A stretch of 23,593 nt of DNA from a virus, in IMG/VR virus record IMGVR_UViG_3300011013_000099, positions 1 to 23,593 of that record. One strand, 5' to 3'. Of this stretch, positions 1,305 to 20,366 are shown piece by piece. How positions within the stretch are numbered: position 1 is the stretch's first letter; the number at the start of each line of letters is the position of its first letter. The notes beneath the pieces were generated by a model. That model was not told the origin of the DNA. It saw only the letters and a list, made by a program, of their open reading frames with translations, and ran no database searches. Made by a program: the position numbers and the translations under genes.

Positions 1305-2309
1305 TTGAAAACATTTAAATCTAAAAATTATAATTTTATATTTAATAAAAAAACAGGATTCTTTGCAAGATGGGGTAAAACAATAAAAGATGATCCTGAA
1401 TTGTCTCCTTATGGTAATGAAATACTTGATATTGAAGTTACTGATATTTGTAAAGGACCTGGAGGTGTACCATGTCCATTTTGTTATAAATCAAATTCTT
1501 TAAAACATACAAACAATATGTCTTTGGAAAAATTCAAAAATATTATTGATAAAATGCCAAAAACTATTACACAAATTGCTATAGGTGCTGATGCTCAATG
1601 TACATCAAATCCTGAAATATGGGATATGATGGAATATACAAAATATAAAGATATTATACCAAATATAACAGTTGCTGATATATCAGATGATACTGCTAAT
1701 AAATTAGCAAAATTTTGTGGTGCTGTTGCTGTATCAAGATATGAAAATAAAAATTATTGTTATAATTCTGTTAAGAAATTGATAGACAGAGGAATGAAAC
1801 AGATCAATATACATATAATGGTATCAAAGCAAACAGAATCAATGATATATGAGACTTTAAATGATTTTAAAAATGATAAAAGACTTAAAGGTCTTAATGC
1901 TATTGTTCTATTATCACTTAAAAAGAAAGGTAGAGGAAAAGGTTTTGATATTTTATCACAAGATAAATTTAAAAAAATTGTACAAACAGCTATGAATAAA
2001 AATATTCCTATTGGTTTTGATAGTTGTTCTTGTCATAAATTTCTTAAAAGTATTGAAGGGTCAAAAAATTATTCAAAACTTAAAATGTTATCTGAACCAT
2101 GTGAATCAAGTTTATTTTCTGCATATATAAATGTTCATGGTGATTTTTATCCATGTTCTTTTACAGAAGGTGTTGTTGGATGGGAAACTGGAATATCTGT
2201 TGATACATGTAATGATTTTCTTAAAGATGTATGGTATAATAAAAGAACTGTAAAATTTAGAGAAAATTTAATTAATAATAAAAGAAAATGTCCAATATTT
2301 GAAGTATAA
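1305..2309 (+). CDS. Radical SAM protein with a Cys-rich C-terminal part
   Basis: This probably binds a [4Fe-4S] cluster and S-adenosylmethionine to start radical chemistry; the substrate is unknown. Near the N-terminus Cys49, Cys57 and Cys60 form CX7CX2C (ending CPFCYK), a spaced variant of the usual CX3CX2C signature. The middle part has the alternating strand/helix pattern of a partial TIM barrel. The last third has further Cys (SCSCHK, CESS, PCSF and a final KRKCPIF), reminiscent of SPASM or twitch domains that hold auxiliary clusters. Length (334 aa) fits such enzymes. The start is TTG at 1305, since GAGG at 1293-1296 is well spaced and no better ATG follows soon. It follows an unknown gene by three bases. 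Family assignment is fairly firm; role in the phage is unknown. Confidence 0.8.
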   Translation: MKTFKSKNYNFIFNKKTGFFARWGKTIKDDPELSPYGNEILDIEVTDICKGPGGVPCPFCYKSNSLKHTNNMSLEKFKNIIDKMPKTITQIAIGADAQCTSNPEIWDMMEYTKYKDIIPNITVADISDDTANKLAKFCGAVAVSRYENKNYCYNSVKKLIDRGMKQINIHIMVSKQTESMIYETLNDFKNDKRLKGLNAIVLLSLKKKGRGKGFDILSQDKFKKIVQTAMNKNIPIGFDSCSCHKFLKSIEGSKNYSKLKMLSEPCESSLFSAYINVHGDFYPCSFTEGVVGWETGISVDTCNDFLKDVWYNKRTVKFRENLINNKRKCPIFEV

Positions 2310-2347
2310 AAATGTTATTTATGATTAGAAAATTTTAGGAGAAAATA

Positions 2348-2953
2348 ATGAAACTTATTGAACAAAGTTATGAAATAATTAGTTTACCTGAGAATCTTTT
2401 AGAAACACTTGAACAAGCAGGTAGAACATGTTATAAAAGTGAAAATAAAATAACAAAAGAATCATCACCTAAATTTGTAAAAATGCTTATAGATAGTGGT
2501 CATCATGCAATGATTGAGTTTGGTGATATAATTGTTAAATTTATTACAAATCGTGGTGTTACTCATGAAATTGTTAGACATAGATTAAGTTCTTTTGCTC
2601 AAGAATCTACTCGTTATGTGCGATATGATAAAAGTATGGAATTCATTAAACCTGTATGGTTTGATGAATGTACTCCATATGATATAGATGTATTTAAAAA
2701 TTTTTTAGTTGATGCTGAGTTAACATATAAAAATCTTTTAGATTTAGGTTGGAGACCAGAACAGGCAAGAGAAGTTTTACCTAATGCTTTAAAAACAGAG
2801 ATTGTATGGAAAGCTAATATTAGAGAATGGAGACATATCTTTAATTTAAGATGTTCTAAAGCATCCCATCCACAAATAAGATCATTACTGCTACCATTAT
2901 TAAAAGAATTAAAAGAAAAATTACCAGTAGTTTTTGATGATATTAAATTTTAA
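2348..2953 (+). CDS. thyX: Flavin-dependent thymidylate synthase ThyX
   Basis: ThyX makes dTMP from dUMP using methylene-tetrahydrofolate and FAD/NADPH, unrelated to ThyA. The defining RHRX7S signature is present: Arg77-His78-Arg79 with Ser87 (RHRLSSFAQES). The product is 201 residues, slightly shorter than typical cellular ThyX (about 220-250) and in the range of phage versions. Further conserved elements are the HHAMIEFGD segment near residue 52 and the C-terminal RSLLLPLLKELK. The start at ATG 2348 follows TTAGGAGAAA at 2335-2344. In a phage this gene supplies dTTP for rapid replication and works with the dUTPase at the end of this window. The assignment is firm. Confidence 0.95.
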   Translation: MKLIEQSYEIISLPENLLETLEQAGRTCYKSENKITKESSPKFVKMLIDSGHHAMIEFGDIIVKFITNRGVTHEIVRHRLSSFAQESTRYVRYDKSMEFIKPVWFDECTPYDIDVFKNFLVDAELTYKNLLDLGWRPEQAREVLPNALKTEIVWKANIREWRHIFNLRCSKASHPQIRSLLLPLLKELKEKLPVVFDDIKF

Positions 2954-2965
2954 AAGGAGAATGTT

Positions 2966-3388
2966 ATGAAAATAAGATGTGGTTTTGTAAGTAATAGTTC
3001 ATCAAGTTCTTTTTATATATATGGTTCTTCAATAAGTATATATGATAATGATAATAACAATAATAATAAACTAATTGAAATATTAAAAGAAAATTTAAGT
3101 AAAGAAGAATATGAAAATTTTAAACTTTATTGTTTAGATAATGATGGTAATATTGATTCAATATATGAAGTAGGAGAATTTATTAAAAATATTTTACCTA
3201 AAGAATTTTCTATTAAACATATAAATTATGATGAAGATAATATTTATGTTGGTATTGATCCATCAAGACAAAAAGATAATATAACACATGGTGAATGGAA
3301 ACAAAATATTAAAAATAAATTAACTGATATTTTTGGTAAAGAAAATTTAGATATGGGATGGTATGAGGATTGTTCTTATGATGGATAA
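2966..3388 (+). CDS. Unknown protein with N-terminal FVSNSSSSSF tag, copy 1 (140 aa)
   Basis: The first 16 residues read MKIRCGFVSNSSSSSF, the same tag that starts two further genes at 4041 and 4763. After the tag the proteins diverge completely. Here the body is acidic and Asn-rich (a run of Asn and Asp near residues 27-36), with helical segments and a C-terminal MGWYEDCSYDG. There is no transmembrane segment or standard secretion signal, since the tag is polar. The start at ATG 2966 has AAAGGAGA at 2953-2960. The gene sits directly after thyX in a packed operon leading to the DNA polymerase. I do not recognise a function; the tag is the informative part. Confidence 0.75.
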   Translation: MKIRCGFVSNSSSSSFYIYGSSISIYDNDNNNNNKLIEILKENLSKEEYENFKLYCLDNDGNIDSIYEVGEFIKNILPKEFSIKHINYDEDNIYVGIDPSRQKDNITHGEWKQNIKNKLTDIFGKENLDMGWYEDCSYDG

Positions 3389-4040: not shown

Positions 4041-4373
4041 ATGAAAATACGTAATGGTTTTGTAAGTAATAGTTCATCAAGTTCTTTTATTGTTAAAAAT
4101 AAAACTAATGAAACAAAGACTATAAAAGATTTTGCAATGGAAACTTCTTTTTTTATAAAACAATTTAATGAAATATATGATTATGAATATACTGTAGATG
4201 AATTTATGTCTGGTATTGATCAATATAGATATATATGGAGACCTGGAGAAGAATTAGAAGTTATTTTTGGTGATGAAGATGGTGTTGTAATGGGTCAAAT
4301 TTATGATTATATGTTAAGAAAATCAGATTATTCAAAATCATTTATGTGGTATTTAAAAGAAATATTAAGATAA
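4041..4373 (+). CDS. Unknown protein with N-terminal FVSNSSSSSF tag, copy 2 (110 aa)
   Basis: This begins MKIRNGFVSNSSSSSFIV and then diverges from the other tagged proteins. The body has helical and aromatic segments (YRYIWRPGEELEVIFGDEDG near residues 62-81) and a C-terminal helix. The DNA of the tag is almost identical to copy 1 at 2966 except for a few codons, while copy 3 differs at several synonymous sites. There is only a weak ribosome binding site (ATAGGTT around 4028-4034), so translation may depend on coupling to the gene that ends four bases upstream. No recognised domain. Confidence 0.7.
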   Translation: MKIRNGFVSNSSSSSFIVKNKTNETKTIKDFAMETSFFIKQFNEIYDYEYTVDEFMSGIDQYRYIWRPGEELEVIFGDEDGVVMGQIYDYMLRKSDYSKSFMWYLKEILR

Positions 4374-4762: not shown

Positions 4763-5173
4763 ATGAAAATTAGAAATGGATTTGTTTCAAATAGTTCAAG
4801 TAGTTCTTTTATTATTGCTATTGGTAAAATAACAGATAAACAAAAATTTCTTGATGAAGCTAAAAAATTTAATTTAGATGAATGGTCATATGAATTGAAT
4901 GAATATGATGGAAATATTGATCAAAAAGTTGAATCTTTTACATGTAATGAATTATCACTTGGTAAATATAAAGGATTAAAAGCTGGTGATATTGTTGTTA
5001 AAATTACTTATTTTGGTAATGAAGGTGATAGTTTTTTCATGAATGAATATGATAATGATATTAATTATAATATAGATTGGGATGATTTTAATAATTCAAT
5101 AACAAAATTTTTGGATAATTGTAAAAGTATAGAAAATCTTGAAATTTCATATGGAGCAGCAAGAAATGGATAA
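4763..5173 (+). CDS. Unknown protein with N-terminal FVSNSSSSSF tag, copy 3 (136 aa)
   Basis: This begins MKIRNGFVSNSSSSSFII. The tag codons differ from copies 1 and 2 at many third positions (for example GTT TCA versus GTA AGT) while the amino acids are kept, which argues for selection on the peptide rather than a recent DNA copy. After the tag comes an acidic alpha/beta body with KAGDIVVKITYFGNEGDSFF near residues 73-92. AAGG at 4748-4751 may serve as ribosome binding site. The last bases overlap the start of the next gene. Function unknown. Confidence 0.75.
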   Translation: MKIRNGFVSNSSSSSFIIAIGKITDKQKFLDEAKKFNLDEWSYELNEYDGNIDQKVESFTCNELSLGKYKGLKAGDIVVKITYFGNEGDSFFMNEYDNDINYNIDWDDFNNSITKFLDNCKSIENLEISYGAARNG

Positions 5174-5417: not shown

Positions 5418-7253
5418 ATGTTTAGAAATGTATATTATGATTCACCAAAAAATCAAATTCATTTATGGGAAGAAATTAATGGTAATAGAAAATATAGTAC
5501 TATACCTTGGGTTCCATATTTTTATCAAAAATCAAAAAAGAAAACAGGTATAAAATCATTAGATGGTTTTGATGTAAAAAAGAGATCATTTGATACATAT
5601 AAACAATATTCTGTTTCTCAAAAAGAAGCTATAAATGTATATGAAAATAAAGTTATACCTGTCATTCAATTTTTAGCAGAAAAATATTCTTGTATATCTG
5701 ATGATGAATTAACTGTACCAGAACTTAAAATTTATTCAATTGATATAGAAGTTCATTCAGAAAAGGGGTTTCCTCATGCTAATGAAGCTAAATTTCCTAT
5801 TACTGTTATTAATATAAAAGAATTTGGTGGTAAATCATATTCATGGGGTTTACAAAAGTATAATAAAAAATTTGATATTAAAGATATTCATGATAAACAA
5901 ATAGATGTTGAATATCAATATTGTGTAACAGAACCAGATTTACTTAAAATTTTTATACATTGGATGAATAGACATCCAGCAGATGTTTTAACAGGCTGGA
6001 ATATCATAGCTGAAAATAAAAAAAATAGATATGGTGGGTTTGATTTACCATATTTAATTAATAGATGTAAAAAAATATTTGGTAAAGATACAAAAATATA
6101 TAAAAAATTATCACCTATTAATAAAGTTAAAATATGGAATCAAAAAAGTACTAATACAATGATGGTTGATATTGCTGGTACAAGTATTATTGATTATCTT
6201 GCATTATATAAATGGTATACATCAAAAAATCAAGAAAATTTTAGACTTGAAACTATACTTCAAGATGAATTAGATATTGGTAAACTTAATTATAATGAAG
6301 TTGGATATGATGATTTGAGAGATTTATATCATAATAATTGGGAATTATATGTTGATTATAATATTTTTGATAATCAAAGAATTGAAGAACTTGAAGAAAA
6401 ATTAGGTTATATAAAACTTGCACAATCATTATCATTATTATGTAAAACACCAATGAAAAATTATAATTCATCTGTTCAACAAATAGAAGGTTTATTATTA
6501 ACATATTATAGAAGAAATAATTTATGTGCTCCTTATTTTGCTGGTGGTAGTCAAGAATATTTTCCTGCTGCATATGTTAAAGAACCTCAAAAAGGTATTC
6601 ATGAATGGGTGAGTGATTTGGATATAGCTTCTTCATATCCAACTAGTATAATTATTTTTAATATGAGTCCAGAAACTTATATGGGTAGAATACAATTATC
6701 TGAAAATGAAATTATAAGATGTTGTAAACAAAAACAATTTGATATTGATTTTACTTTTATTAAAACAAATGGTATTAAAAATATTAAAGGTGATCAATTA
6801 AGAAATTTTAATTTATTATTAAAGAAAAAATTAATAACTATAGCTCCATGTGGTACTGTTTTTGATAATACTAAAAAAGGTGTTTATGCTTTAGTTGAAA
6901 AAGCTGTGTTTTTTAAAAGAAAAAAAATAAAAAGAAAAATGCTTATATTAAAAAATCAATCCAATGATTGTAAAAAAAGTGATCCTGAAAAATCAAAAAT
7001 GTTAACTGAACAAGCAGAAAGATTTTTTACTACTCAATGGGCATTAAAAATTATATTAAATCAAGCTTTTGGAGTGCTCGCAGTACCATATTCACGTTAT
7101 TTTAATACAGATATTGCGGAAGCTATAACATCTGCAAGTAAATATACTATTTTACATGGGCAAACTATTGTAAATAGAATATTAAATAATCCAAGTATTG
7201 ACAAAACTTTTAATGATGAATTAAAAAAAATAGTAAAACAAATAAATGCTTGA
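5418..7253 (+). CDS. Family B DNA polymerase, N-terminal part (exonuclease, fingers, motifs A and B)
   Basis: This is the first 611 residues of a T4 gp43-like replicative polymerase. The 3'-5' exonuclease motifs are visible: Exo I with Asp109 and Glu111 (YSIDIEV), Exo II with Asn195 and Asp209 (GGFDLPYL), and Exo III with Tyr314 and Asp318 (DYNIFDN). Polymerase motif A is DLDIASSYP (Asp402) and motif B is KIILNQAFG (Lys544 to Gly552). The frame stops at TGA 7251-7253, before motif C (DTDS), so this chain alone lacks one catalytic aspartate pair and the thumb. The missing part lies in the next gene. T4 gp43 is about 900 residues; 611 plus the downstream segment gives a similar total. Aeromonas T4-like phages are known to have polymerase genes split into 43A and 43B, which is a precedent. 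Assignment firm; the break is unusual. Confidence 0.93.
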   Translation: MFRNVYYDSPKNQIHLWEEINGNRKYSTIPWVPYFYQKSKKKTGIKSLDGFDVKKRSFDTYKQYSVSQKEAINVYENKVIPVIQFLAEKYSCISDDELTVPELKIYSIDIEVHSEKGFPHANEAKFPITVINIKEFGGKSYSWGLQKYNKKFDIKDIHDKQIDVEYQYCVTEPDLLKIFIHWMNRHPADVLTGWNIIAENKKNRYGGFDLPYLINRCKKIFGKDTKIYKKLSPINKVKIWNQKSTNTMMVDIAGTSIIDYLALYKWYTSKNQENFRLETILQDELDIGKLNYNEVGYDDLRDLYHNNWELYVDYNIFDNQRIEELEEKLGYIKLAQSLSLLCKTPMKNYNSSVQQIEGLLLTYYRRNNLCAPYFAGGSQEYFPAAYVKEPQKGIHEWVSDLDIASSYPTSIIIFNMSPETYMGRIQLSENEIIRCCKQKQFDIDFTFIKTNGIKNIKGDQLRNFNLLLKKKLITIAPCGTVFDNTKKGVYALVEKAVFFKRKKIKRKMLILKNQSNDCKKSDPEKSKMLTEQAERFFTTQWALKIILNQAFGVLAVPYSRYFNTDIAEAITSASKYTILHGQTIVNRILNNPSIDKTFNDELKKIVKQINA

Positions 7254-7411: not shown

Positions 7412-8326
7412 ATGAATAAAAAAGGAATAAAAAGTGTAGGCGATATAGATTATGTCGCCTACATTTGACAGATTGATACTGATAGTTTATTTATTAAAAA
7501 TAAAGAATTTTTATTAAATCAAGGTATGGATGAAGATAAATGGAATAAAATACCTTTTGATGAAAAAATTAAAATAATAATTGGTTTATCAAAAAAACTT
7601 GAAACTTATATTAATGATTGTTGTTATAAAGAATTACAACAAGGATTATATAATAGTATAGTAGAACAAGATGATTTTTCTATTATTTTTAAACAAGAAA
7701 TTGTATGTGAAACTGCATTATTTGTAAGAAAAAAGAAATATGGTTTTCATGTAGTAAATGATGAAGGTGTACCAAAAGATAAAATTGATGTAACAGGTCT
7801 TGAAATAATTAGATCTGAAACACCAAGTGCTTTTAAAGTTATTTTAAAAAAGGTTTTGGAAATGATCTTAAAAAATGCTTCTGATAATGAAATAATGAAA
7901 TATGTAAATGAAAGTAAAAAAAATATTAAAAATGAAGAAGCAAAAAACATTTCAAGTAATATTAGTATAAATAATCTTGAAAAATATATCAGATCTGATG
8001 ATACACCAATAAAAGGAACACCTTATTATGTTAAAGGTGCAGCAAATTATCATAAATTATTAAAGGTTTTTAATCTTGAAAACAAATATGAAAGAATAAA
8101 TGAAGGTGAAAAAGCATCTGTTATATATGTTAAACCAAATCCTTATAAAGTAAAAGTTATTTCATATATACATTGGCCTAAAGAATTTGAAGAATATAGT
8201 ATTTTACCTGATTATGAAAAACAAATAGATAAATTTTTTATTAATAAAATTAAAATATTACTTAAACCTATGAATAGAGAAAATATTTTAACAAAAAATA
8301 CAACGTTTGATTTATTCTTTAAATAA
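7412..8326 (+). CDS. Family B DNA polymerase, C-terminal part (motif C, thumb), with in-frame TGA
   Basis: GAGAGG at 7401-7406 precedes ATG 7412. The first 18 codons give MNKKGIKSVGDIDYVAYI, which matches the strand leading into motif C, then TGA at 7466-7468. The same frame continues with CAG ATT GAT ACT GAT AGT (QIDTDS, motif C) to TAA at 8324-8326. Downstream are a thumb-like segment with TPIKGTPYYVKGAANYHKLL and a C-terminal TTFDLFFK resembling the sliding-clamp binding tail of T4 gp43. The only ATG after the TGA (7526) is beyond motif C and would give an inactive product. So a recoding event, or an unseen splicing event, seems necessary. If ribosomes skip from ATT 7463 to ATT 7472 the protein reads YVAYIDTDSLFI, the standard form. 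Identity firm; expression mechanism open. Confidence 0.85.
7436..7462 (+). other. RNA hairpin immediately before the in-frame TGA in the polymerase gene
   Basis: Arms GTAGGCGATAT (7436-7446) and ATGTCGCCTAC (7452-7462) pair over 11 positions, one a G-U wobble, around a 5-base loop AGATT. The hairpin lies entirely in coding sequence and ends exactly at the codon before ATT-TGA. It uses GGC, GTC, GCC and TAC, codons otherwise rare in this AT-rich window, so pairing rather than codon preference seems to be selected. No U-tract follows, so it is not a normal terminator. Confidence 0.8.
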
Positions 8327-8699: not shown

Positions 8700-8773
8700 C
8701 AGGAGTCGATCAAGGTGACACGTGGCATTTGGAATGCTGCTATAGATTGGTTCAATTCCAGTGCTCCTGACCA
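8700..8773 (+). tRNA. tRNA-Pro (anticodon UGG)
   Basis: Acceptor arms CAGGAGT (8700-8706) and GCTCCTG (8763-8769) pair with one wobble, followed by A and an encoded CCA. The anticodon stem is TGGCA/TGCTG around loop TTTGGAA, anticodon TGG at 8730-8732, reading CCA codons. The T-arm ATTGG-TTCAATT-CCAGT is good. C1-G72 with A73 fits bacterial tRNA-Pro. The D-arm is short (16 bases between acceptor and anticodon stems) and pairs poorly, and position 8 is C rather than U, so folding is somewhat irregular. Confidence 0.75.
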
Positions 8774-8778
8774 TTTCA

Positions 8779-8864
8779 TTATTTTATTCAAAATGTCCTC
8801 GCTCAGATACTTTTTATTAAAAATTTTATTATTTTATTTAAAATGTCCTCGCTCAGATACTTTT
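8779..8864 (+). repeat. 36-base direct repeat, two copies 50 bases apart
   Basis: Copies at 8779-8814 and 8829-8864 are identical except for one base (C or T at position 11 of the unit). The core AATGTCCTCGCTCAGATACT is much more GC-rich than its surroundings. The repeats sit between the tRNA-Pro and the ligase promoter. No clear palindrome is present. With only two copies and a 14-base gap they are not a CRISPR array. Function unknown: perhaps a protein binding site or processing signal. Confidence 0.8.
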
Positions 8865-8874
8865 CATAATTATA

Positions 8875-12329: not shown

Positions 12330-13406
12330 TTGAGTAAAAGAATCATAAAAGGACCAACAACTATATTATATCATACATATGTTGCAGATATGGCTGGATG
12401 TGGTTATATTAGATGTATATTTCCATCTATGTTAGTATCACAATATGTTCATAAAAAAACAATAAGATTTATACCATCATATGGTATGTATTTTATTAAT
12501 GATCCTGCTTTTTATAAAAATCAAATGTTTACAATATTTCAAAGGTCAGCTACACCAGAACAATTAAAATTAGTTTTATATTTTAAACAGAATTTTAAAC
12601 AAAAAACTAATACACCATTATTATATGAAATTGATGATCTGTTAACAGATATACCTGATTGGAATTATGCTTCTGATTATTATAAAAAATATTCAAAAGT
12701 TGCTATTGAAATAATGAAAAATATGGATGGTATGATAGTATCAACTAATAAATTGAAAGAAATATATTCAAAATATTGTTCAAAAATAAAAGTTGTACCA
12801 AATCATTTAGTTAAAGGGTTTTGGGGTGAAGCTAAATATATTGAACAACAAAATAAAAAATTAAGAATACTTTGGTCTGGATCAGGTAATCATTTTGCAA
12901 CTAAAAAAGGTCAAAGTGGTGGTGATTTTGGTAAAGAACTTTTATCTTTTATAAATAAAACTACTGATAAATATCAATGGGTTATAGTTGGTGGTTGCCC
13001 ACAAGAAATTAAAGAAAATAATAAAATTGAAAAACATGGATGGATACCATTATTAGAATATCCTAACTATATGAAATCATTAAAAATTGATTTAGCAATT
13101 GCACCATTAGAACAAAATCTTTTTAATGAGTGTAAATCAAATATAAAAGCATTAGAGTATACAGCAAGTGGTATTCCAGCTATATATACAAACATAGAGC
13201 CATATAAAAATATGACTGTTGTATGTGATACAGAAGAATGGATGATTCATCAAATTGAAATGTATTTAAGTAATCCATATAAACTAAAAGAATTATGGAA
13301 TAAAGATTATAAAAAACTAAAATCACAATTATTTTGGGAAGATAATAATAATTTGACTAAATATTTAAATAAAATGTTTGACATTTTTAATTCAAAGTTA
13401 TATTAA
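12330..13406 (+). CDS. Glycosyltransferase, GT4-like (358 aa)
   Basis: This probably transfers a sugar from a nucleotide-sugar to DNA, protein or a host glycan. The architecture is GT-B-like: the N-terminal half has YEIDDLLTDIPDWN (about residue 100) and MDGMIVSTNKLKEIY then KVVPNHL, as in group 1 glycosyltransferases. The C-terminal half has LRILWSGSGNHF, YQWVIVGG, a KHGWIPLLEYPNYM segment, and IDLAIAPLEQNLFNECKSN, which matches the donor-binding E-x7-E region (E248-ish onward). The start is TTG at 12330 with AAAGGAG at 12317-12323; no other start fits as well. No signal peptide. Its isolated position after a duplicated leader suggests separate control. The acceptor is unknown; a modified DNA base or a virion glycoprotein are options. 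Confidence 0.8.
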   Translation: MSKRIIKGPTTILYHTYVADMAGCGYIRCIFPSMLVSQYVHKKTIRFIPSYGMYFINDPAFYKNQMFTIFQRSATPEQLKLVLYFKQNFKQKTNTPLLYEIDDLLTDIPDWNYASDYYKKYSKVAIEIMKNMDGMIVSTNKLKEIYSKYCSKIKVVPNHLVKGFWGEAKYIEQQNKKLRILWSGSGNHFATKKGQSGGDFGKELLSFINKTTDKYQWVIVGGCPQEIKENNKIEKHGWIPLLEYPNYMKSLKIDLAIAPLEQNLFNECKSNIKALEYTASGIPAIYTNIEPYKNMTVVCDTEEWMIHQIEMYLSNPYKLKELWNKDYKKLKSQLFWEDNNNLTKYLNKMFDIFNSKLY

Positions 13407-13926: not shown

Positions 13927-13954
13927 TTGACATATGATTTAAATGATGTATAAT
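13927..13954 (+). promoter_or_regulatory. Sigma70-type promoter for the PEP-CTERM gene
   Basis: TTGACA at 13927-13932, a 16-base spacer and TATAAT at 13949-13954 are consensus boxes, 42 bases before the next start. This suggests the following gene is transcribed independently by host-type RNA polymerase. Confidence 0.75.
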
Positions 13955-13996
13955 TGTTTTATTAAAGTTAACTTATAAATTTAAAGGAGATTTAAC

Positions 13997-14755
13997 ATGT
14001 TCAAAAAATTATCAGTATTTACATTGTTTTTTGTTTTTATGTTAACCAGTTTATCTTATTCAACTACAATCACATTAAGAACAATAAAAAGAAGTAAATC
14101 ATTTACAGCAGATGTATCTGCAAAAAAACCACTTGAAAGTCTTGATAAAAGAAAACTTTATTTAAATGTTTATTCAACACCTTTATTGTTAGATTTTGAT
14201 AATAAAACATATGATGCTTTTTGTGTTGATTTTTTTGCACATATTCATACAGGTGTATGGAATAATGCAAAATTTTCATCAGCAAAAGATTATTTTAATA
14301 CTAATTATGTTGATCCAGAAAATTCATTAAATTATGCAATATATAATTTATATCATAATTGGGATACTACAATGAATAATTCAAAATCTAAATCATTTGC
14401 ACAATTAAATACTTGGGATATTTTATATGATTTTCAACCTATTGAAGATCAATGTATTGATAAAAATTTTATATATTGGAATGTTAAAAATGCATTTGGA
14501 AAAAATTATACAAAAAAAGCACATAATAATAGTTTATATCAAAATTGTTTGTTAAATAGTAGATCAAATAGGTCTTATGAAGTAGAAAGTTTTATTGATC
14601 AATTTTCAGTTGTTGAATTTGGTGATACACCTGGAAAATATCAAACATTACTTATTAGAAAAACAAATTCACCAGTTCCAGAACCAGCAACACTTTTATT
14701 ATTTGGTATAGGTTTAATTTGGATATCAAAAAAATCAAAAAATAGTTTACTTTAA
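13997..14755 (+). CDS. Secreted protein with C-terminal PEP-CTERM sorting signal
   Basis: The N-terminus is a Sec signal peptide: MFKK, a hydrophobic core (LSVFTLFFVFMLTSL), then SYSTT as probable cleavage zone around residue 22. The C-terminus is a textbook PEP-CTERM tail: VPEPA, then the hydrophobic TLLLFGIGLIWI and the basic SKKSK before the end. In bacteria exosortase recognises this signal and processes the protein at the cell envelope. The middle part (about 200 residues) includes YDAFCVDFF, a segment often met in PEP-CTERM proteins, plus two other Cys. AAAGGAG at 13982-13988 precedes ATG 13997, with its own promoter. A phage gene like this could alter the host surface during infection or be acquired from a host. 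The signals are clear; the role is unknown. Confidence 0.88.
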   Translation: MFKKLSVFTLFFVFMLTSLSYSTTITLRTIKRSKSFTADVSAKKPLESLDKRKLYLNVYSTPLLLDFDNKTYDAFCVDFFAHIHTGVWNNAKFSSAKDYFNTNYVDPENSLNYAIYNLYHNWDTTMNNSKSKSFAQLNTWDILYDFQPIEDQCIDKNFIYWNVKNAFGKNYTKKAHNNSLYQNCLLNSRSNRSYEVESFIDQFSVVEFGDTPGKYQTLLIRKTNSPVPEPATLLLFGIGLIWISKKSKNSLL

Positions 14756-14786: not shown

Positions 14787-14863
14787 GCGGGTGTAGTTCT
14801 AATTGGTAGAACTTTGGCCTTCCAAGCTGATAGTTATAGGTTCAAATCCTATCACCCGCTCCA
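14787..14863 (+). tRNA. tRNA-Gly (anticodon UCC)
   Basis: The acceptor arms GCGGGTG and CACCCGC pair fully, with T73 and an encoded CCA. D-arm GTTC...GAAC encloses TAATTGGTA with the expected GG. The anticodon loop CTTCCAA gives TCC (14821-14823), reading GGA. T-arm ATAGG-TTCAAAT-CCTAT is perfect. A TATAAT box at 14769-14774 lies just upstream. GGA is a frequent Gly codon here. Confidence 0.95.
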
Positions 14864-14873
14864 CAAAATATTA

Positions 14874-14959
14874 GCAGGGACACAGGTGATGTGGTGACAC
14901 CAAGGCACTGTAAATGCCCCGTTTCGACTTTGTAGGTTCAACTCCTACTCCCTGCACCA
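14874..14959 (+). tRNA. tRNA-Tyr (anticodon GUA)
   Basis: The acceptor arms GCAGGGA and TCCCTGC pair fully, followed by A and an encoded CCA. The anticodon stem GGCA/TGCC holds loop CTGTAAA, giving GTA. A long variable arm (CCGTTTCGACTTT region) marks a class II tRNA, as expected for bacterial tRNA-Tyr. T-arm GTAGG-TTCAACT-CCTAC is good. It lies ten bases after tRNA-Gly and is probably co-transcribed and processed with it. Confidence 0.95.
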
Positions 14960-17002: not shown

Positions 17003-17146
17003 ATGAAAATAAATGATAAACCATATATGGATAAACCAAAGAAAAAAGATCAAATTAAAGATCAATTAATATATGGTAATGGTGAAACTCTTGCTGAAAA
17101 GAAAAAGAAAAAGAAAAAATATAAAGAAAATAAACTTAATGAATAA
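17003..17146 (+). CDS. Small Lys-rich peptide (47 aa)
   Basis: AAAGGATAA at 16989-16997 precedes ATG 17003. The 47 residues include KPKKKDQIKDQLIYGNGETL and a run of Lys near the C-terminus. The stop at 17144-17146 overlaps the next gene's start by eight bases. The composition suggests a nucleic acid binding or disordered peptide. It is short, but the ribosome binding site and overlaps are in keeping with its neighbours. Confidence 0.5.
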   Translation: MKINDKPYMDKPKKKDQIKDQLIYGNGETLAEKKKKKKKYKENKLNE

Positions 17147-17609
17147 TACAAAAAATATTATATCATATTCATCATATGATGATTTAAAAAATCATAAAGA
17201 TGTTTTTTTAAAATTAGGTTTTGAATTAGAAAATACTATGAATAATATTATTAGTAATATTTGGAAAGAAGATCCAAATATTACTTTAAAAAATGATTTT
17301 AAAAAATTTACTAAAGATAATTGTATGATAATTATAGCTTATAATAATAGTAATCCTATTGGTTTTATTGTTATTAATACTGATATTAAATTTGAAGTAG
17401 GTTATATTCATATGTTATTTGTAGAAAAAGAATTTCAAGGTAAAGGAAATATTGGAAAAGGACTATTAGAAAGATCTAAAGTATTTTTTAAAAATACTAA
17501 AGCTAAATCTATATCTGTTGGTACTCCTTGGAAAAATATTAATGGTAAGAAATTTTATAAAAAAATGGGATTTAAAGAAGAAAGTGTTGGATATATGTTA
17601 GATATATAA
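17139..17609 (+). CDS. GNAT-family N-acetyltransferase, copy 1 (156 aa)
   Basis: This is a GNAT-fold enzyme that would transfer acetyl from acetyl-CoA to an amine; the substrate is unknown. The fold signature is clear: a strand with IGFIVINTDI, then VGYIHMLFVEKEFQGKGNIGKGLLERS, where QGKGNIG is the CoA pyrophosphate loop (motif A), and the C-terminal NGKKFYKKMGFKEES (motif B). I chose ATG 17139; the longer upstream frame would run through the small Lys-rich gene. A close paralogue lies at 18794, with the same length and most residues unchanged. GNAT enzymes in phages can modify host proteins or counter toxins, but that cannot be decided here. Confidence 0.85.
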   Translation: MNNTKNIISYSSYDDLKNHKDVFLKLGFELENTMNNIISNIWKEDPNITLKNDFKKFTKDNCMIIIAYNNSNPIGFIVINTDIKFEVGYIHMLFVEKEFQGKGNIGKGLLERSKVFFKNTKAKSISVGTPWKNINGKKFYKKMGFKEESVGYMLDI

Positions 17610-18793: not shown

Positions 18794-19273
18794 ATGATAT
18801 TTCTTAATGAAACAAAAAATCTTATATCTTATTCAGAATTTGATGATTTAAAAAATCATAAAGATGTTTTTTTAAATTTAGCTCTTAAATTAGAAAATAT
18901 TATGAATAATATGATTAATAAGGTTTGGAAAGAAAACCCAAATATTACTATAAAAAATGATTTTAAAAAATTTACCAGAGATAATTGTATGATAATTATA
19001 GCTTATAATAATAATAAACCTATTGGTTTTATTGTCATTAATACTGATATTAAAATTAAAGTTGGTTATATTCATATGTTATTTGTAAAAAAGGAATTTC
19101 AAGGTAAGGGAAGTATTGGAAAAGGGTTATTAGAAAGATCTAAAATATTTTTTAAAAACACTAAAGCTAAATCTATATCAGTTGGTACTCCTTGGAAAAA
19201 TATTAATGGTAAAAAATTTTATAAAAAAATGGGATTTAAAGAAGAAAGCATTGGATATATGTTAGATATATAA
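18794..19273 (+). CDS. GNAT-family N-acetyltransferase, copy 2 (159 aa)
   Basis: AAGGAAA at 18781-18787 precedes ATG 18794. The sequence is colinear with the GNAT at 17139 and most positions are identical, including VGYIHMLFV, the motif A loop QGKGSIGKGLLERS and the last 30 residues almost unchanged. Differences cluster in the N-terminal 20 residues (MIFLNETKNLISYSEFDD here) and scattered conservative changes. This is a tandem paralogue separated by the intron-bearing gene and the ParB-like gene. Duplication with both copies intact suggests different substrates, dosage, or recent copying. Confidence 0.85.
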   Translation: MIFLNETKNLISYSEFDDLKNHKDVFLNLALKLENIMNNMINKVWKENPNITIKNDFKKFTRDNCMIIIAYNNNKPIGFIVINTDIKIKVGYIHMLFVKKEFQGKGSIGKGLLERSKIFFKNTKAKSISVGTPWKNINGKKFYKKMGFKEESIGYMLDI

Positions 19274-19375: not shown

Positions 19376-19406
19376 TAAGGAAGTATAAAAAAGGGAGAAT
19401 ATGCTT

Positions 19407-20366
19407 ATGAGTAAATGGATTAAAAAAGATAAATTTAAATCTTTTGTAAATCAAAGAGAACAAGAACCAGAACCATCATCTAATAATAGTTTTGTTAAAA
19501 AGTGGAAAAATCCTAAAATGGGTACTGTTGAAAAGGCAAATGTTTATAGAGTAAGATTATTGCCTGATAAAAATAGTGAATTTTATAAACATTATTATTA
19601 TCATTATTTTATGACAGATGAAAAACATCATTTTATTAAATGTTCTAAAACAGATGGCATGGATAATTTTTGTCCTTGGTGTTCTATTACACAGACACTT
19701 TACAAAGGTAATAAAGAAGATAAAAAGCTTGCTAAAAATTATCAAAGAAAAGAAAGATTTGTTGGAAATATTGTTGTTATTGATGATCCAAGAGATGAAG
19801 ATGTTGATGATGAATACAAAGTCTCTGGTAAAGTAAGATTATATGAATTTCCTGCAACAATTGAAAGTAAAATTAAGGCTGAACTTACAGATAAAGCAGA
19901 AGGATTTGGTTCAGCAGTATTTGATCCAGAAGATGGTCATGATTTGTTAATTAAAATTAAAGCTAAAAAACCTGATCCAAATGGCAAAAGTTGGCCTGAT
20001 TATTCTGATACAATGTTTGCTAGAAAATCAACTTCACTTGGTACTGAAAAAGAAATTGATGATCTAATGGAAGAGACAACTGATCTTGTTGAATATCTTA
20101 AAGATTCTACTCTTAGCTGGGAAGAGCATAAAAAACTTTTACAAATTGAAGGAGTTTGGGAAGATGTAGAAGATGAATGGAATAGAAGAGTTAATGAAAC
20201 AGAAGATTTAATAAAAAAAGAAAAAAAATCACCTAATGAAGATGTTAAGAAAGTAACTATTAATGCTGATGATCCAAAAGAAGAAAAATCACCGGATGAA
20301 GATGATCAATCATTTGATGATGATGAAGATGAAGCAGCATTAATGGCAAAACTTATGGATAATTAA
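19407..20366 (+). CDS. gp32-type single-stranded DNA binding protein
   Basis: This would coat single-stranded DNA at the replication fork and in recombination. A zinc site has ligands His66, Cys79, Cys89 and Cys92 (CPWC), spacing H-x12-C-x9-C-x2-C, the same as T4 gp32 (H64, C77, C87, C90). The N-terminal segment is basic (MSKWIKKDKFKSFVNQR), the core has ANVYRVRLLPDKNSEFY and RFVGNIVVIDDPRDEDVDD, and the tail is acidic with DDDEDEAALMAKLMDN, the region T4 gp32 uses for partner proteins. Length 319 is close to T4's 301. GGGAG at 19393-19397 sits nine bases before ATG 19407, better than for ATG 19401. Assignment strong. Confidence 0.92.
   Translation: MSKWIKKDKFKSFVNQREQEPEPSSNNSFVKKWKNPKMGTVEKANVYRVRLLPDKNSEFYKHYYYHYFMTDEKHHFIKCSKTDGMDNFCPWCSITQTLYKGNKEDKKLAKNYQRKERFVGNIVVIDDPRDEDVDDEYKVSGKVRLYEFPATIESKIKAELTDKAEGFGSAVFDPEDGHDLLIKIKAKKPDPNGKSWPDYSDTMFARKSTSLGTEKEIDDLMEETTDLVEYLKDSTLSWEEHKKLLQIEGVWEDVEDEWNRRVNETEDLIKKEKKSPNEDVKKVTINADDPKEEKSPDEDDQSFDDDEDEAALMAKLMDN

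Follow-up and report, generated by a model that had tools for sequence, protein, structure and literature searches.

The gene at positions 13997-14755 of the window (the whole stretch of 23,593 nucleotides that was analysed) raises the question of what a phage does with a protein that carries both a signal peptide for export and a tail for sorting to the surface of its host. The roles of PEP-CTERM proteins are mostly unknown. The initial annotation described the product as a phage-encoded PEP-CTERM surface protein and was silent on the body between signal and tail, which is predicted here to be a thioester domain (TED). Thioester adhesins are covalent binders known from Gram-positive bacteria, which attach to their targets by way of the reactive internal bond of the domain.

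Phage context, signal peptide and sorting tail

The window is an IMG/VR virus record and a T4-like contig in which the genes for gp32, a T4-type RNase H and a family B DNA polymerase (PolB) lie on the same strand. When it was compared with a second viral contig, L003 (IMGVR_UViG_3300005264_000126), 20 genes were found to be common to both in the same order, with 38-83% identity, and the protein encoded at the equivalent place in L003 was 42% identical to the window protein. The codon use of the gene was found to be like that of its neighbors, as had been claimed, with a mean synonymous log-likelihood at the 55th percentile among window genes and a GC3 of 0.060 compared to a window-gene mean of 0.080. 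Since a syntenic orthologue is kept in a second contig, comparison of the sequences indicates that 13997-14755 is a maintained phage gene. The earlier view that it is not a very recent acquisition was thus right, on grounds stronger than codon use, namely the 42% identical orthologue and the shared gene order. Mis-binned bacterial DNA or a very recent capture would be in keeping with bacterial relatives that are ordinary chromosomal genes, and is scarcely credible given that the contig also encodes gp32, RNase H and PolB on the strand of the gene, and given 20 syntenic orthologues, an orthologue of the gene itself and native codon use. The phage genes and the synteny also counter the possibility, raised in the initial annotation, that the contig is bacterial in this section. 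A scan with the single protein found no close relatives in viral contigs or annotated phages, and a search of bacterial genomes with a two-sequence alignment likewise found no close relatives.

The ORF, its coordinates, the signal peptide and the tail were all as first described (Table 1). The tail scored 24.3 bits with PF07589 (curated cut-off 20.7) and 22.9 bits with TIGR02595 (curated cut-off 16), and PF07589 matched none of 14 control genomes. Among the 34 plus-strand ORFs of the window, only this one had hydrophobic segments at both the N- and the C-terminus. The hydropathy profile gave 2.25, 1.9 and 1.03 for the N-terminus, C-terminus and middle of the protein, respectively, with a Sec-type N-terminus and a body free of transmembrane segments, and the C-terminus contained the PEP motif, a hydrophobic helix and a basic end. 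The same combination of Sec signal and PEP/hydrophobic/basic tail characterizes the PEP-CTERM/exosortase (EpsH) system (PMC1569441); its described members are bacterial, and phage goes unmentioned in that paper of 2006. The promoter-like site upstream, one of two perfect sigma-70 consensus sites in the window, agrees with the claim that the gene has its own promoter, and its position next to tRNA genes was also borne out, although the second, tRNA-like element was called by neither ARAGORN nor Rfam.

Table 1. Positions of the gene, its predicted protein features and flanking elements in the window. L003, L060 and L129 denote loci in other viral contigs.
Feature	Position	Strand	Basis
Glycosyltransferase (phrog_7162), conserved upstream neighbor	12330..13406	+	Orthologues in L060 (69%) and L129 (44%)
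Sigma-70 promoter-like site, TTGACA-16 nt-TATAAT	13927..13954	+	12/12 consensus matches
Ribosome-binding site, AAGGAG	13984..13989	+	By inspection
Gene for thioester-domain PEP-CTERM protein, 252 aa	13997..14755	+	ORF; syntenic orthologue L003:6023-6775
Sec-type signal peptide with inferred cleavage site, residues 1-22	13997..14062	+	KK n-region, hydrophobic core, mean KD 2.25
Predicted thioester domain, residues about 23-222	14063..14662	+	Motifs, family homology, AF2 fold match
Cys76, predicted thioester cysteine, motif FCVD	14222..14224	+	Invariant in family; outside search pattern
Gln136...Trp140, central-helix motif AQLNTW (TQxxPhiW)	14402..14416	+	Invariant, yet within gathering pattern
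Gln216, predicted thioester glutamine, motif YQTLL	14642..14644	+	Invariant in family; outside search pattern
PEP-CTERM sorting signal PVPEPATLLLFGIGLIWISKKSKNSLL	14672..14752	+	PF07589 and TIGR02595 over cut-off
tRNA-Gly (TCC), downstream of the PEP-CTERM gene	14787..14863	+	ARAGORN; Rfam RF00005 60.2 bits
tRNA-like element, probably tRNA-Tyr (GTA), CCA encoded	about 14872..14959	+	Inspection and fold
gp32-like ssDNA-binding protein, T4-like marker	19401..20366	+	PF08804 E 4.6e-19; phrog_224

Other features were observed elsewhere in the window. The family B DNA polymerase is encoded in two ORFs (5418-7253 and 7526-8326, matching phrog_262 at 20-564 and 609-838, respectively), and a perfect promoter consensus is present between them at 7250. 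Three different proteins (2966-3388, 4041-4373 and 4763-5173) have a common N-terminal leader, MKIR(N/C)GFVSNSSSSSF. Two 45-nt direct repeats, 93% identical, were found at 8773-8867 between a tRNA-Pro and the gene for an NAD-dependent ligase, and two very similar GNAT-like acetyltransferase genes (17073-17609 and 18794-19273) constitute an apparent duplication.

Thioester motifs, bacterial relatives and predicted fold

Bacterial TEDs carry three motifs (PMC4450167; PMC6194298). The thioester Cys belongs to [YFL]C-Phi-zeta, the central helix bears TQxxPhiW, and a late strand bears PhiQ-zeta-PhiPhi, which includes the thioester Gln. All three motifs were present in the window protein, in its L003 orthologue and in a protein from a further viral contig, L123. 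The second motif was weak in the window protein, with A in place of T and T in place of Phi, and read TQLNLW in the L003 orthologue. Among 918 background ORF entries, the combined motif was found only in L015, a viral PEP-CTERM protein.

A bacterial family was gathered by scanning bacterial genomes with the central-helix motif alone, which gave 50 loci in planctomycetes, proteobacteria, Desulfobacterota, Armatimonadota and similar taxa, mostly encoding secreted proteins whose tails are of the PEP-CTERM or VPLPA type. Signal and tail were cut away from 29 of these proteins and an HMM was built from the remainder. Among 984 ORFs it matched the window protein with E 5e-9 (32 bits) and its L003 orthologue with E 2e-7, and nothing unrelated was found below E 0.1. 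In the joint alignment of 34-35 sequences the only invariant columns were C76, Q136, W140 and Q216, of which Q136 and W140 were fixed by the way the family was gathered; C76 and Q216 were conserved in 35/35 sequences against a mean column identity of 21%. The identity between the window protein and the bacterial family members was 10-21%. The Pfam TED model, PF08341, gave matches in 21 of the 34 members, the best with E 8.5e-5, and its curated cut-off was passed by the proteins of Desulfobacula (25.5 bits) and Dethiosulfatarculus (23.1 bits). PF08341 matched neither the window protein nor the L003 orthologue, so that the TED claim is one of homology through the family and of fold, and not of direct Pfam membership. 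Searches of PDB sequences gave chance matches only. A match to PF24215, a phage head-tail domain, was discarded as chance (13.2 bits compared to a cut-off of 27). Taken together, the profile and alignment results indicate that the window protein is homologous to exosortase-type bacterial proteins with TED motifs. Loci L073-L122 (for example L100:4996-5769 and L108:6726-7580) represent a broad exosortase-type family of Gram-negative bacteria with TED motifs.

No exosortase gene was found on the eight phage contigs searched, and an EpsH exosortase was encoded in nine of the ten bacterial genomes bearing family members. From these gene contents it is fair to infer that the host must supply the exosortase, as the initial annotation had proposed. 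When 297 Desulfobacterota genomes were searched with a two-sequence profile, only the Desulfobacula match (39.8 bits) extended over the greater part of the body, and the other matches were mostly to the tail; in 274 genomes of the class of genome G020, no match was found at E 1e-4. The samples and thresholds of these searches differ, and the Desulfobacula match is suggestive only as a pointer to the host.

An AlphaFold2 (AF2) model of residues 23-225, made from a 35-row alignment, had a pLDDT of 71.9 and a pTM of 0.72, a middling confidence with weak insertions, and the pLDDT was about 90 around both C76 and Q216. A model made from only two sequences had a pLDDT of 33 and was discarded. In a Foldseek search of the PDB, ranks 1-7 were all TEDs, headed by 5a0g with E 3.2e-4 and a probability of 1.00, and the entry that followed them, which is not a TED, had an E of 1.3. 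The 12 entries aligned with VIA-align were all TEDs, with Z of 7.9-10.8 over 143-166 residues at 3.2-4.1 Å, and 5a0g was again the best (Z 10.8). Nothing similar was found in a library of viral structures (best E 1.1). According to this model, the body of the window protein most likely folds as a class I-like thioester domain.

The modeled fold and the shared residues predict a thioester and are not proof of the bond. A TED-like fold without a thioester, which exosortase would display as a stable domain for non-covalent binding, would fit what fold and homology alone convey about a protein as divergent as this one, and is nevertheless improbable in view of a Cys and a Gln that are invariant in a family of such low overall identity. 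With a TED as its predicted body, the description "surface protein" is replaced in the predicted mechanism by "reactive, covalently binding surface protein".

Known thioester proteins and the proposed mechanism

Like the Gram-positive TEDs (PF08341; SfbI, CpTIE, Cpa, SaTIE and BaTIE), the window protein has the three motifs and the predicted TED fold, with the domain at the N-terminus after a Sec signal and a sorting tail at the C-terminus. In contrast to them, it is phage-encoded, its tail is of the PEP-CTERM type (exosortase, diderm) whereas theirs is LPXTG (sortase), and its 252 residues include no stalk domain of the isopeptide or ester kind that TIE proteins usually have. In the survey of Walden 2015, TED candidates occurred "exclusively in Gram-positive bacteria" (PMC4450167), and the published surveys consulted describe TEDs in Gram-positives only; the exosortase-type TEDs of Gram-negative bacteria are apparently an undescribed class. 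A TED encoded by a virus was found in no described virus. In the literature collection searched, no paper was found linking "thioester domain" with "PEP-CTERM", or "PEP-CTERM" with "viral genomes", which is weak evidence of novelty. The presence of a TED on Gram-negative exosortase-type proteins points to what some of the PEP-CTERM proteins may do biochemically, and would be the first such activity in concrete terms.

Two precedents bear on what such a domain could do. The TED of SfbI captures a lysine of fibrinogen covalently (PMC4450167). The closest precedent in function on a mobile element is the conjugative plasmid pLS20, which encodes a TED adhesin, TIEpLS20, whose Cys68 is needed for conjugation (PMC8092201); like the window protein it is a TED adhesin on a mobile element and has been proposed to join cells, and it differs in belonging to a Gram-positive plasmid, in having a class II TED with Cna domains and in lacking a sorting signal. 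By analogy with this adhesin, the window protein most likely alters what the infected cell attaches to.

We propose that a T4-like phage encodes a small thioester protein that is sorted by its host. The protein would be expressed early in infection, a timing suggested by the host-type promoter, and exported by Sec; the host exosortase would then recognize and process the PEP-CTERM tail, and the protein would be released to the cell surface or the exopolysaccharide (EPS) layer. Within the class I-like TED, Cys76 and Gln216 would spontaneously form an internal thioester. Attack by a nucleophile, either the amine of a lysine or, with less certainty, the hydroxyl of a sugar, would join its bearer covalently to Gln216, the bearer being a polymer of the matrix, a neighboring cell or a phage particle. 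The most likely use would be the covalent fastening of the infected-cell surface or matrix, which would alter aggregation or attachment and, through them, phage spread or exclusion. This explanation, which builds on the phage location, the conservation, the tail, and the TED homology and fold, is given as a whole a probability of roughly 0.6.

The initial annotation had also raised superinfection exclusion. The sorted TED might occupy or cross-link the receptor or EPS covalently and so mask the receptor, or it might trap incoming virions, in either case keeping competing phages from adsorbing. The gene is phage-encoded with its own host-type promoter and adjoins a glycosyltransferase gene, the tail suggests surface display, and the same biochemistry would be compatible with such a role. 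The window protein had no PADLOC match and, in PHROGs, only a match at E 0.2, that is, no homology to a known superinfection-exclusion or defense family. Exclusion would moreover be a specialization of covalent surface fastening with the same anatomy, and as the specific function it is a live but less likely alternative.

PEP-CTERM genes and thioester-domain motifs in other viral contigs

A search of phage genomes for other PEP-CTERM tails, suggested in the initial annotation, gave around 35 viral contigs with PEP-CTERM-type ORFs, the search consisting of two exact DNA patterns and some of the short contigs possibly being host DNA. About 40 of the 56 matches to the first pattern were dropped as chance translations (for example "VPEPATLLTKK") or as out of context. 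PEP-CTERM genes were found amid phage genes for tail sheath (L054), tape measure (L033), gp32 and baseplate (L127), gp32 (L129) and clamp loader (L128). The setting of the window gene recurs in L129, where glycosyltransferase and gp32 flank a PEP-CTERM gene that is unrelated to it. TED motifs were present in three other viral PEP-CTERM proteins, those of L003, L123 and L015, and each was paired with a second PEP-CTERM gene. The L123 protein scored 81 bits with the bacterial family profile. L015:1730-2434 scored 2.3 bits, with no detectable homology despite its three motifs; it was rejected as a family member and is kept as a lead only.

The partner of the orthologue in L003 (6840-7715) is PepA-like over its full length, with 73 bits to NF033554 (cut-off 80), and a third exosortase-type protein of this related phage contig, with a PVPES variant tail, is encoded at L060:3226-3795. 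In flocs, PepA binds EPS to the cells (PMC9850573); it shares with the window protein a PEP-CTERM tail and is thought to bind EPS, but only the tails match and the window protein is no PepA homologue. The PepA-like neighbor and the recurrence of PEP-CTERM genes in many viral contigs would suit a host-derived biofilm or floc fitness protein that strengthens EPS binding of the infected cell as PepA does, with no thioester reaction in infection. Against this reading, which we consider unlikely, C76 and Q216 are strictly conserved in the phage copies, which argues that the reactive bond is in use.

Covalent fastening of the infected-cell surface thus remains the preferred explanation, and the predicted TED that T4-like phages have kept next to other PEP-CTERM genes suggests a covalent rebuilding of the surfaces of infected biofilm cells. 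In a wider formulation, for which the odds appear about even, phages of diderms would carry exosortase-sorted TEDs that act as a covalent glue. A second PEP-CTERM protein would often accompany the TED in a surface-cargo locus (between glycosyltransferase and gp32 in the T4-like lineage), and the phages would thereby reprogram the infected cell at its surface or in its matrix during infection. No earlier TED would then be known from a virus, and this one would rest on a wider, apparently undescribed class in Gram-negative bacteria.

Additional viral loci were recorded. The two PEP-CTERM genes of L015 (1730-2434 and 1101-1733, both on the minus strand) lie beside thymidylate synthase in a T4-like contig, and the TED motifs read FCLE, VQESIW and IQSML. 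In L126, which is the contig of L123, a clear TED PEP-CTERM protein (2392-3129, minus strand) and a second PEP-CTERM gene (1719-2321, minus strand) form a pair near virion structural genes. PEP-CTERM genes were also present in the large or T4-like viral contigs L016/L128 (228 kb), L056 (142 kb), L054 and L051, and some such contigs carry two PEP-CTERM genes each, so the arrangement is not a one-off.
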